A stretch of DNA of 64,000 nt from Leptogranulimonas caecicola (lineage in GTDB: Bacteria; Actinomycetota; Coriobacteriia; Coriobacteriales; Atopobiaceae), in contig NZ_AP025285.1 in NCBI RefSeq assembly GCF_023168405.1, positions 928,001 to 992,000 on the forward strand, in the 5' to 3' direction. Of this stretch, positions 8,593-44,720 are shown piece after piece. The translations under genes and the position numbers were made by a program. The first letter of the stretch is position 1. Each line of letters starts with the position of its first letter. The notes under the pieces are model-generated. The model searched no databases. It saw only the letters and a list, made by a program, of their open reading frames with translations, and was not told where the DNA came from.

Positions 8593-9645
8593 TTAGACGG
8601 TAAGTTCGCCGCGCATGGACACTGGCACGTACGCAGCGGCTTGCTGTGGGGTGAGTCCCCGGCCAAAAAGGTGCATGAGTTTGGTCAAGGCTGCCTCGCA
8701 GGTCATATCGCACCCGGAGATGACGCCGGCTTTGGCCAGGGCATCTCCTGTGGCATAGCGCTGCTCTTCGACGCCGCCTGCGGGACATTGGGTAACGTTA
8801 ACCACCAGTAAGCCGGATTTCACTGCATGGGCTATCGCATCCACGAACCATGGTTCTGTGGGGGCGTTGCCTGCGCCAAAGGTGCGAAGGACCACGGCTT
8901 TGAGTCCCGGGGCACTCAGTTGGCTTTCCAGGATTTGCTGGGTAATGCCAGGATAGAGATAGATGACGCTCACCGCAGGGTCCATGGTGAAGAAAGGCGT
9001 GAGCGGTGTGTCGCCTGCGGGGCGCCAGAGCTGCTTTTTTCTAAAGTCGATATGAAGGTCCATGGCGCAGAGCGCGGGATAGTTGTAAGAGGTAAAGGCG
9101 CCAAAATCTGTGGAGCTCACCTTAGTGGAGCGGTTGCCTCGCCACAGATAGCGGCCAAAGGAGATGGCCACCTCTCGCACCATGGCTCCCCCGTCTGTCG
9201 GGTCTTTGGCGGCAGCCACTTGAAGAGCGGTGAGGAGGTTCTCTGTGCCATCCTCGCGTATCTCGCCAATGGGCAACTGGGACCCCGTAAGAATCACTGG
9301 TTTGGTGAGCCCCTCAAGCATGAAAGAGAGCGCCGAGGCGGTATAGGCCATAGTGTCAGTCCCATGGAGCACCACAAATCCGTCGTAGTCCTCATAGGCA
9401 TCGGCAATGGTGTGGGCGATTTGGCTCCAAGCGGCCGGATTCATGTTGGAGGAATCGATAGGCGGGTCAAACTCCTTGTGATTCAAGTCGTAGCCTAAAA
9501 GCTTTAGCTTTGGCACCCCGTCCATGAGATGGGCAAAGTCGAAAGGCACAAGCGCCCCTGTGGCGGGGTCTTCCACCATGCCAATGGTCCCACCGGTATA
9601 GATAAGCAAAAGCCGAGGGCGTTTTGTCGCAGTAGGAGCAGCCAT
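8593..9645 (-). CDS. ansA: Type I L-asparaginase
   Basis: 350 residues. Both catalytic threonine motifs are present: YTGGTIGM at the N-terminus and VLHGTDTMAYTASAL. It hydrolyses asparagine to aspartate and ammonia. There is no signal peptide, which fits the cytoplasmic type I class. The ATG at 9645 is preferred over the GTG at 9651, because GGAGG lies seven bases before the ATG but only one before the GTG. It is transcribed away from mtnN. Confidence 0.92.
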   Translation of the reverse strand: MAAPTATKRPRLLLIYTGGTIGMVEDPATGALVPFDFAHLMDGVPKLKLLGYDLNHKEFDPPIDSSNMNPAAWSQIAHTIADAYEDYDGFVVLHGTDTMAYTASALSFMLEGLTKPVILTGSQLPIGEIREDGTENLLTALQVAAAKDPTDGGAMVREVAISFGRYLWRGNRSTKVSSTDFGAFTSYNYPALCAMDLHIDFRKKQLWRPAGDTPLTPFFTMDPAVSVIYLYPGITQQILESQLSAPGLKAVVLRTFGAGNAPTEPWFVDAIAHAVKSGLLVVNVTQCPAGGVEEQRYATGDALAKAGVISGCDMTCEAALTKLMHLFGRGLTPQQAAAYVPVSMRGELTV

Positions 9646-41694: not shown

Positions 41695-41734
41695 GAACAC
41701 CCGTTCTTCATCTGGTATAGTAGAACGGACGTTC
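41695..41734 (+). promoter_or_regulatory. Two tandem LexA-type (SOS) boxes
   Basis: GAAC-ACCC-GTTC at 41695-41706 and GAAC-GGAC-GTTC at 41723-41734, 28 bases apart, both exact matches to the Gram-positive LexA core GAAC-N4-GTTC. A possible -10 element TATAGT (41716-41721) lies between them, and the ATG of the radical SAM gene follows 22 bases after the second box. Confidence 0.75.
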
Positions 41735-41755
41735 TCATTCAATGGGAAGAGACCT

Positions 41756-43138
41756 ATGGATACCCTGTCTAAACTCTCAATACTGGCAGATGCCGCCAAG
41801 TATGATGCAGCCTGCACATCTTCAGGTGCGGATAGGGCCCCTCGAAAAGGCATGCTAGGCATGGCGAGCAGCAGCGGATGTTGCCACAGTTTCACCCCTG
41901 ATGGTCGCTGCATTACACTGCTAAAAGTCCTCATGTCTAATGCATGCACCTATGACTGCGCCTATTGCGTCAATAGGCGTAGTGCAGGAGGTCTGCGAGC
42001 CACTTTCGAGCCAAAAGAATTAGCGGCGCTCACCATAGATTTTTACAAACGCAACTATATAGAGGGTCTTTTTTTAAGCTCAGGAGTGCTTGGCGAGCCA
42101 AATGCCACCTGTGAGCGCATGATAGAAACGCTCCGTCTACTAAGAGAAGATTACCGATTTAACGGATACATACACGCAAAGGCAATCCCCGGGGTGGCTC
42201 CGGAGCTCATTGACCGCTTGGGAAGATTGGCAGACAGGATCTCTGTCAACATCGAGCTTCCCAGCTCCGCCTCTCTTCATACGCTCTGCCCTCAAAAGCA
42301 GGGGGCGGATATCCTCAAACCCATGCGCCAGATCCATGACACTCTTCAGCAAGAAAAACTATTGGGCGCGGGAGGGAAAGGCAACAGCGGTGCAGGATCT
42401 TACCTGTCTACCGTAAAGCCTCCTCTTCCAGCCGAGAACAGCCACCATCAGCTCCCTGAAAGAACTGGGCAAAGACCGCAGTTGTTTAGAAGTACGAGTG
42501 CTTCGTCTGCCTTTGCTCCCGCAGGGCAGGCGACGCAATTAATCGTGGGGGCCTCTCCGGAAGACGACAATCACATATTGAAGCTCTCAAGCTCCCTCTA
42601 TAAAACATACGGGTTGAAAAGAGTGTTTTTCTCGGCCTATATGCCGGTAATCGAGGATTCGCGCCTCCCCCATCCAGAAACTCCGGTTCCCCTTCGTAGA
42701 GAGCACCGGCTATACCAAGCAGATTGGCTCATGCGTTTTTATGGCTTTGATGCTGACGAGCTGGTGAGCCCAGAAGCACCTTTTTTGGATTTGGAAGTCG
42801 ATCCAAAGTTGGCTTGGGCACTGACCCACATGGAGCAGTTCCCCATAGAGGTGAATACTGCCTCAAAAGGCGACCTTCTGAGAGTTCCGGGCATAGGGCC
42901 TGTCGGCGTTAGGAAGATATTGCGCGCTCGTAAAAGCCATCAGCTTACCTTTGATGATTTGAAAAGGCTCAAACTCACCATGCGCAGGGCGTGCCATTTT
43001 CTCACCTGTGGCGGGCAACGCGATCCACAAAGCCCTGCTCATCCAGAACAAATAAGAGAGTTGGTGATTCAAGATGCCGCTGCCTCTTCCTATAACCGCA
43101 CTCAACGAAACCTCCAAGGCCAGCTCTCGCTCTTCTGA
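41756..43138 (+). CDS. Putative DNA modification/repair radical SAM protein (TIGR03916 type)
   Basis: 460 residues. The radical SAM cluster is C64-x3-C68-x2-C71 (CTYDCAYC). KGMLGMASSSGCCHSFTPDGRC, LFLSSGV and VFFSAYMPV match the family named for linkage to uracil-DNA-glycosylase-like proteins. The C-terminus has a helix-hairpin-helix (LLRVPGIGPVGVRKILRAR) that should bind DNA. Residues about 205-245 (GAGGKGNSGAG to SSAFAPAG) form a Ser/Gly/Pro-rich insertion that I do not expect in the family. The partner gene overlaps its 3' end by 65 bases. Two LexA-type boxes sit in the promoter, suggesting damage induction. Confidence 0.85.
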   Translation: MDTLSKLSILADAAKYDAACTSSGADRAPRKGMLGMASSSGCCHSFTPDGRCITLLKVLMSNACTYDCAYCVNRRSAGGLRATFEPKELAALTIDFYKRNYIEGLFLSSGVLGEPNATCERMIETLRLLREDYRFNGYIHAKAIPGVAPELIDRLGRLADRISVNIELPSSASLHTLCPQKQGADILKPMRQIHDTLQQEKLLGAGGKGNSGAGSYLSTVKPPLPAENSHHQLPERTGQRPQLFRSTSASSAFAPAGQATQLIVGASPEDDNHILKLSSSLYKTYGLKRVFFSAYMPVIEDSRLPHPETPVPLRREHRLYQADWLMRFYGFDADELVSPEAPFLDLEVDPKLAWALTHMEQFPIEVNTASKGDLLRVPGIGPVGVRKILRARKSHQLTFDDLKRLKLTMRRACHFLTCGGQRDPQSPAHPEQIRELVIQDAAASSYNRTQRNLQGQLSLF

Positions 43139-44153
43139 GATCCTGAATACCCTCGAGTCGGAAACCTGCAAATTTGTGGGCTCACTTCAAAAGCTCGCTA
43201 TTCAAGGGCAGCGTCTTTGTCTAGGCTGCATCCCTTCTGCAGAAGGGATGCTTACAGCAGTGGGAGCGCTCTATCTAGCCCGTGTTCCTGAGGAATGCGC
43301 TCGCCTTATCGTCCCTACAACCGGACAAGCTAGACTGGATGAGGTCTATCTCTCTGCGCCTTGTGATGCGACTTTGGCGACGTACGTGTTTGAAGGATTC
43401 ATCAGGGCCACTTTTGGAGCCAAAGGGATGCCACAATATGTGCGCGATCCAAAGACCATGGTGACCTATATAGCAGCCCAGGTACAAAATCCTTCTATGC
43501 CAGAAATCTTGCATCGTTATGTGCGATGTGGCTTTACTTTTGGAAAAAAGATTGGAACCCATGGGGCAGACCCTCTGATCGCCGAGGCAGAGGCGTTGGC
43601 CACAAGCACCTCTTCAGAGGCAGAACATCTTCGTCAGTTTGTGAGGTTCTCACGGCTAGCAGATGGTTCGTTTTTTGCCCAATTCCGGCCAAAGGCAGAC
43701 GTGGTGCCTCTGGCCGCAGGCTATTTCAAGCGAAGGATGGGTGAAGAGAGATTCTGCCTATTGGATCCAGTTCATGGATCTGCTGCTCTCTATGGAGACC
43801 ATCATTTGGGAATCATGAAGCTTGATCCCCTTGAGGCAGAGCTACTAGCCTCTCAAACCGCATTATTGGCTCAAGACGAACCCTATGTCCGTGCACTCTG
43901 GAAAGGCTTTTATGATGCGGTGACATTGCCTCATAGGACAAAAATGCAGCGAGGCTATGATCTTCGACAGCAGTTTATGCCACAGAGGCTATGGGCTTAT
44001 CTTCCCGAGCTGGACCCTCGAACAGATACGGCCTGGACTTGGATTCCACCAATCTATCGTGGAAATGCTCCTTTGGCCTCGAAGATGCTGAATGCACCTG
44101 TTGGCAAGAGAGAATCGCTGCCTGCCTCTCCTGAAGAGACAGAGGAAAGTTGA
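43074..44153 (+). CDS. Partner of the radical SAM protein (TIGR03915, DUF4130-type DNA metabolism protein)
   Basis: 359 residues from the ATG at 43074, which overlaps the upstream gene by 65 bases; a start further in is possible because the family usually begins close to the GCIPSAEGMLTAVGALY region, but no better ATG with a ribosome site was seen. ILHRYVRCGFTFGKKIG, QFVRFSRLADGSFFAQF, PLAAGYFKRRMG and QQFMPQRLWAYLPEL are typical of the TIGR03915 family, almost always beside the TIGR03916 radical SAM gene. Some relatives are fused to a uracil-DNA-glycosylase domain; this one is not. Function unproven. Confidence 0.8.
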   Translation: MPLPLPITALNETSKASSRSSEILNTLESETCKFVGSLQKLAIQGQRLCLGCIPSAEGMLTAVGALYLARVPEECARLIVPTTGQARLDEVYLSAPCDATLATYVFEGFIRATFGAKGMPQYVRDPKTMVTYIAAQVQNPSMPEILHRYVRCGFTFGKKIGTHGADPLIAEAEALATSTSSEAEHLRQFVRFSRLADGSFFAQFRPKADVVPLAAGYFKRRMGEERFCLLDPVHGSAALYGDHHLGIMKLDPLEAELLASQTALLAQDEPYVRALWKGFYDAVTLPHRTKMQRGYDLRQQFMPQRLWAYLPELDPRTDTAWTWIPPIYRGNAPLASKMLNAPVGKRESLPASPEETEES

Positions 44154-44324
44154 TTTGAAACCCTCATACTCATTTGGAGGGGCATAATTTGATTTATGAA
44201 TTTTTATTTAGAGAGGATTTAAGTTTAAGGTTCTTCTCAGCCAAGAACATATCGATGATTATCATAGAGATGGGATGCGGTTTATCACTTATCTTCTAGA
44301 CTTGCCTGGAGGATGGAGCCATCT

Positions 44325-44720
44325 ATGGGAGCTGTAACTTATTCTATCTCCAGCTTTAGCAAAATATGCTTTATGCCTCCCCTCTTGCGATCGCTTTTTG
44401 AGAATTGGGCGCGAGATAGCTACTTTAAGCTCTACGGCTATGAACCTTCAGACGAAGAGATCGATGTCTATACCACTCTTTGCGACTTGCATGGGGCAAG
44501 TCGCAGGCTTCGCAGGGATTGGGCAGAGGCTCTTCTCGATCGTTTTATACCGACCTCTTATATCAAAGATCTCCCTATAGGAGAAGAGGGCCTTCATGTA
44601 GAAGGTCTTCAGGTGCGCTATTTCTCAGAGGAGGACGGGGCTATTCCTTTTTGTGGAACCACTTCAGCACCTAAAGATTCCAAGCGTAAGCTTCTGGGGG
44701 TCAAGTTCTCCAAAATGTGA
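44325..44720 (+). CDS. Hypothetical protein in an AT-richer pocket
   Basis: 131 residues from the ATG at 44325 (GGAG six bases upstream); an in-frame ATG at 44313 has GGAGG with no spacing. Moderately charged, no membrane segment or signal peptide. Recognisable blocks: FENWARDSYFKLYGYEPSDEEIDVYTTLC and RRDWAEALLDRF. No family recognised. The 170 bases upstream are clearly AT-richer than the neighbourhood, which may mark transferred or decaying DNA. Ends before a terminator-like hairpin shared with nanE. Confidence 0.45.
   Translation: MGAVTYSISSFSKICFMPPLLRSLFENWARDSYFKLYGYEPSDEEIDVYTTLCDLHGASRRLRRDWAEALLDRFIPTSYIKDLPIGEEGLHVEGLQVRYFSEEDGAIPFCGTTSAPKDSKRKLLGVKFSKM

Follow-up and report, generated by a model that had tools for sequence, protein, structure and literature searches.

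A predicted SOS-controlled radical SAM–DUF4130 gene pair with a putative sliding-clamp docking motif in Leptogranulimonas caecicola

Organization of the locus and its promoter

The window analyzed here is a stretch of 64,000 nucleotides from the genome of Leptogranulimonas caecicola, a member of the Atopobiaceae (Coriobacteriales). It contains two overlapping genes of the TIGR03916 and TIGR03915 families, preceded by a pair of palindromic boxes. The features are as follows (window coordinates):

41695..41706: predicted LexA box 1, GAACACCCGTTC, an exact GAACN4GTTC over the expected −35 region
41713..41721, + strand: predicted extended −10 element, TGGTATAGT (TGn-TATAGT), with TATAGT at 41716-41721
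41723..41734: predicted LexA box 2, GAACGGACGTTC, an exact GAACN4GTTC over the expected transcription start
41756..43138, + strand: gene 1, TIGR03916 (COG4277-type) radical SAM protein, 460 aa (NCBIfam 576 bits, cut-off 343.5)
41813..41911, + strand: C20, C43 and C52 together with H44, candidate auxiliary Fe-S site, each present in 168/168 orthologues
41945..41968, + strand: radical SAM cluster motif C64-x3-C68-x2-C71, all three cysteines present in 168/168 orthologues
43074..44153, + strand: gene 2, TIGR03915/DUF4130 partner, 359 aa (NCBIfam 133.5 bits, cut-off 112.25; Pfam 2.8e-33)
43118..43135, + strand: GQLSLF, predicted beta-sliding-clamp docking motif, residues 455-460 at the C-terminus of the gene 1 product

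An earlier note, made from the sequence of the window, had described two GAAC-N4-GTTC boxes flanking TATAGT, a first protein with a radical SAM cluster and a helix-hairpin-helix (HhH), and a second protein of the TIGR03915 partner family. All of this stands: both boxes are exact, C64, C68 and C71 form the cluster motif, the Pfam matches of the first protein are Radical_SAM and HHH_3 (the HhH comprising residues 364-406), and the second protein scores above its family cut-off and is almost always encoded next to gene 1 orthologues. Gene 2 begins within gene 1, the two sharing 65 nt. Loci of Atopobium minutum and Olsenella sp. show the same kind of overlap when the partner is read from its first in-frame start.

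The two boxes are 28 bp apart, with the extended −10 element between them. This element was identified by eye and from aligned relatives, four of which also have TGnTAnnnT between the boxes; a scan with the sigma-70 consensus did not call a promoter there. With the −35 region expected over box 1 and the transcription start over box 2, a repressor bound to both boxes would be expected, from the geometry, to cover the promoter. A third exact GAACN4GTTC in the window (8845-8856, GAACCATGGTTC) lies within a 352-aa ORF that looks asparaginase-like by eye and is probably a chance match.

The LexA box of this genome

The genome (2.00 Mb, one contig) encodes one strong LexA match. The start region of lexA contains GAACATCTGTTT and GAACGTTCGTTT, which are 18 bp apart and differ from GAACN4GTTC by one mismatch each. 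For the remainder of the regulon we considered exact motif matches only, and these number 26 genome-wide. Genes with an exact box just upstream include recA, ruvC (with ruvA and ruvB next), a Y-family polymerase gene, sbcD, ogt and a RecD2-like helicase gene. The same motif was found in the lexA promoters of 30 out of 31 genomes of Coriobacteriales. Given the occurrence of such boxes before lexA, recA, ruvC, the Y-family polymerase gene, sbcD and ogt, GAACN4GTTC is, by the evidence of sequence, the LexA box of this genome.

Several additional observations concern the regulon at large. Across Coriobacteriales, lexA promoters mostly have two to three tandem boxes in steps of ~28 bp, which is also the step of the pair in the window. 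The exact box of the ogt-family (O6-alkylguanine methyltransferase) ORF, at genome position 509642, lies 44 bp upstream; this gene may also belong to the SOS regulon. At genome positions 30688, 205960 and 1271495, exact boxes precede dnaB, a threonylcarbamoyladenylate synthase gene and mraZ, and may be either real or due to chance. Two more exact boxes, at genome positions 1652228 and 1652336, are 108 bp apart with no directly adjoining ORF of at least 110 aa; this region could hold a small SOS gene, for instance one for a division inhibitor.

Conservation of the boxes upstream of orthologues

TIGR03916 proteins are present in 152 of the 299 genomes of Coriobacteriales. We collected upstream regions of 90 such loci, placing the start sites by alignment with the window protein, and searched positions −120 to −1 with at most one mismatch allowed. 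At least one box was found in 87 loci and at least two boxes in 73; exact boxes were present in 47 of the 90 regions. With the full set of 256 equally shaped palindromes as a control, the runner-up by exact sites occurred in three loci. With one mismatch allowed, among the palindromes listed, the near neighbour AAAC reached 33 loci, and the best unrelated palindrome had at least one site in 25 loci and at least two in seven (versus 87 and 73). Within the coding region, exact boxes counted likewise numbered two. The spacing of the boxes clusters at ~26-28 and ~40-44 bp with no single fixed value.

Outside Coriobacteriales, exact boxes precede 27 of 61 orthologues from Firmicutes, the next motif reaching four. 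GAACN4GTTC was found in none of the eight homologues on genome contigs from outside Coriobacteria and Firmicutes, as would be expected if the LexA motif differs there. The Caballeronia homologue has CTGTATAAATATACAG within 40 bp of the gene, which we take to be the classical CTGT-N8-ACAG SOS box. In Leisingera and Azospirillum, the plasmid-borne homologues are preceded by GAACN7GAAC, also within 40 bp of the gene. This motif is the other-strand reading of the alphaproteobacterial LexA direct repeat (PMC8565304). Thus, alpha- and betaproteobacterial homologues are accompanied by motifs of their own, indicating that each lineage puts its own LexA operator on the TIGR03916 gene. Orthologue sets share phylogeny, so that the counts do not represent independent events; nonetheless, families and phyla with differing spacings and LexA motifs agree.

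The earlier note had proposed SOS (LexA) control of the pair, had regarded the two boxes as exceeding chance, and had pointed to the lexA and recA promoters and to orthologous upstream regions as places to look. All of these points are supported by the sequences: the motif is found with one mismatch in each of the two lexA boxes and without mismatches at recA and ruvC, it is retained at most orthologous loci and in most lexA promoters of the order, and the arrangement is well beyond random expectation. It is true that a single GAACN4GTTC is expected 0.57-0.64 times per 64-kb window, making a lone site (~0.6 expected) unsurprising. However, paired sites 12-60 bp apart never arose when the window was dinucleotide-shuffled 400 times. 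Together with the conservation across Coriobacteriales, this rules out a chance coincidence, to which we assign a negligible probability. One could also suppose that a different repressor recognizes GAACN4GTTC and that the pair lies outside the SOS regulon, as the evidence for the motif comes from sequence. This is very improbable, given that the same motif precedes lexA, recA and ruvC here and lexA in nearly all relatives examined, and that, where a lineage has a different LexA motif, its homologues have that motif in place of GAACN4GTTC. The designation of the boxes as LexA operators is therefore strongly supported at the sequence level, and the SOS response very probably induces the gene pair. 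Its role in repair is something that we infer.

An SOS connection of this family has precedents. LexA control was proposed for CAC3343-CAC3344 of Clostridium acetobutylicum, a bacterium of a different phylum, in an excerpt of PMC3828012 that does not mention tandem boxes around an extended −10 element or a clamp motif. In Bacteroidetes, SOS control was predicted for COG1573-COG4277, and earlier cases from Verrucomicrobia and Alphaproteobacteria are cited in the same report (PMC8565304). The COG1573-COG4277 operons resemble the present pair in having a COG4277-type radical SAM gene within a predicted SOS regulon. They differ in the LexA motifs and in the partner, which there is a uracil-DNA glycosylase gene and here a DUF4130 gene without a UDG domain. 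Since the link was already proposed in C. acetobutylicum and Bacteroidetes, the Coriobacteriales case is an extension of the known SOS link of the TIGR03916 family and not a first.

Structural features of the radical SAM protein

The AlphaFold model of the gene 1 product (mean pLDDT 82) displays a radical SAM barrel; among solved structures, it comes closest to lipoyl synthase, HydE and biotin synthase (Z ~17). Lipoyl synthase binds an auxiliary cluster on N-terminal cysteines, which by analogy makes a second Fe-S cluster on C20, C43 and C52 plausible. The loops with these three cysteines are modeled with low confidence. Residues 209-250 (42380-42505) make up a disordered insertion, whose length in Atopobiaceae exceeds that in most of the other aligned families.

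A conserved tail motif matching the beta-clamp consensus

Bacterial proteins that bind the beta clamp have a C-terminal consensus QL(S/D)LF (PMC9690074). The gene 1 product ends with such a pentapeptide. We searched the tails following the HhH in 168 orthologues with the pattern Q[LM]x[LFM][FLWMI] and found it in 153, compared to a mean of 3.0 and a maximum of 8 for shuffled tails. QLSLF is the most frequent tail pentapeptide (82 cases), followed by QMSLF (26). Several of the 15 tails without a match to the regular expression have near-variants, e.g. QLSIF or QPRLF, and the tail glutamine aligns in 167/168 orthologues. As a control, the last 60 residues of 559 other ORFs from the window and the fetched loci gave three matches to the loose motif and none to the strict one. 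A QLxLF-type motif is also present in four plasmid-borne homologues. In most Atopobiaceae, and in Leisingera, Azospirillum, Caballeronia (QLSLI) and Spirosoma, the motif is at the very end of the protein; elsewhere it is up to ~100 residues before the C-terminus. Such a variable distance (0 to ~100 residues) fits a short linear motif. In the AlphaFold model the QLSLF tail is disordered (pLDDT <50 for residues 456-460), and the genome encodes a normal DnaN. The similarity to the published consensus suggests that the GQLSLF tail docks on the beta sliding clamp.

Pol IV and ImuB are clamp-binding SOS proteins, and the likeness extends to recruitment through a short QLxLF-type motif. However, they are polymerases or polymerase accessories, whereas the present protein is a radical SAM enzyme. 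In the literature searched we found no report joining a radical SAM enzyme and a clamp motif, nor any earlier report of the QLSLF tail in TIGR03916 proteins, which appears to be new. In this genome, the Y-family polymerase whose gene has an SOS box (locus L031, 2035-3411) shows no obvious QLxLF clamp motif.

The DUF4130 partner

DUF4130 proteins diverge fast, to ~20-30% identity. They were predicted to be mutagenesis-related enzymes tied to SplB-like radical SAM proteins and uracil DNA glycosylases (PMC3765255). Nearly all of the best 50 fold matches to the partner model (pLDDT 84) are DHH/DHHA1 proteins. The match to RecJ has Z 9.0 and rmsd 5.2 over 230 aligned residues, a Z not far from what unrelated models often give, and PAP phosphatase also scores Z 9.0. 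A sequence-profile link to RecJ or NrnA was rejected, as hhalign of the partner against RecJ and NrnA-like sets returned a probability of ~0.1%, which leaves the DHH likeness as a fold lead only. Likewise, Pfam gave no DHH match among 30 members of the partner family, and the partner profile found nothing convincing among sequences of solved structures. Judging from the model, the partner may be a DHH protein that has degenerated.

Leisingera and Azospirillum encode the partner as a fusion with a UdgX domain. The window partner matched only TIGR03915/DUF4130 in NCBIfam and Pfam, with no UdgX or family-4 UDG domain. A UdgX partner encoded elsewhere in this genome was considered and dismissed, as the family-4 UDG found does not have the KRRIH loop. 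The fusion hints weakly at uracil or AP-site biology; in the literature searched there were no papers on UdgX together with radical SAM proteins. Downstream of gene 2, a 135-aa ORF with no family match lies on the same strand (44313-44720).

A model for the module and alternative readings

Building on the operators, gene pair, domains, tail motif and cysteines read from the sequence, we propose that the pair forms a radical SAM module for DNA processing that is induced by SOS and recruited by the replication clamp, a reading to which we assign a probability of about 0.78. With LexA dimers on both boxes, the promoter would be covered and the operon repressed. Upon DNA damage, RecA-stimulated self-cleavage of LexA, the established route of derepression, would free it, and the radical SAM protein would be made along with the product of the overlapping partner gene. 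The HhH domain would bind DNA, while the flexible C-terminal QLSLF would dock on the beta sliding clamp, putting the enzyme at stalled or newly repaired forks. There, the [4Fe-4S]/SAM radical, perhaps with the second Fe-S cluster, might modify either a damaged base or an intermediate of base excision. The DUF4130 partner, with its RecJ-like predicted fold and UdgX fusions in Proteobacteria, could conceivably present or process the substrate, although we have low confidence in this step.

Two other readings depart from this model at the tail or at the chemistry. With SOS control retained, the QLSLF tail might bind not the clamp but the DUF4130 partner or another protein, and the nearly invariable adjacency of the partner gene would agree with a conserved docking site of this sort. 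Yet the pentapeptide is the published clamp consensus QL(S/D)LF (PMC9690074), it is kept even though the partner diverges to ~20% identity and where the partner is fused to UdgX, and its shifting distance from the C-terminus is that of a short linear motif, all of which makes partner docking unlikely. Alternatively, the enzyme might resemble spore photoproduct lyase (SPL) and repair photoproducts by direct reversal: DUF4130 has been grouped with SplB-like radical SAM photolyases (PMC3765255), and SplB itself is SOS-regulated in several species (PMC8565304). Nevertheless, TIGR03916 is the sole NCBIfam match of the gene 1 product, the SPL family being absent from its NCBIfam matches; the nearest solved folds are those named above, and SPL is not among the best 50 fold matches, which still leaves room for such a fold. 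Moreover, the protein has three extra invariant cysteines, and to our knowledge simple SPL chemistry needs none of this kind. SplB and the present protein are alike as SOS-linked radical SAM enzymes with a known or presumed role in DNA repair, but they belong to different families, and the extra cysteines, the HhH, the clamp-like tail and the DUF4130 partner (with its UdgX fusions) are features of the latter. We consider an SPL-like activity to be quite improbable.

A bolder version of the clamp-recruited module is that TIGR03916 represents a widespread SOS-induced, clamp-travelling radical SAM enzyme with a second Fe-S cluster, which together with a catalytically altered RecJ-like partner, joined by UdgX in Proteobacteria, carries out an as-yet-undescribed repair reaction at forks. 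We offer this as a whole only tentatively, at somewhat less than even odds.

The TIGR03916/TIGR03915 pair is found in many phyla. The order-wide LexA operators bear on when the pair acts, the conserved, predicted clamp-docking peptide on where the enzyme acts, and the three extra invariant cysteines on what to look for in it. Jointly, the operators, tail and cysteines make an orphan family open to direct genetic and biochemical tests.

TIGR03916 homologues also occur on mobile elements: we counted 158 plasmid records, many of them from Phaeobacter, Paracoccus and Azospirillum, as well as 10 records of phage or gut-virome origin.
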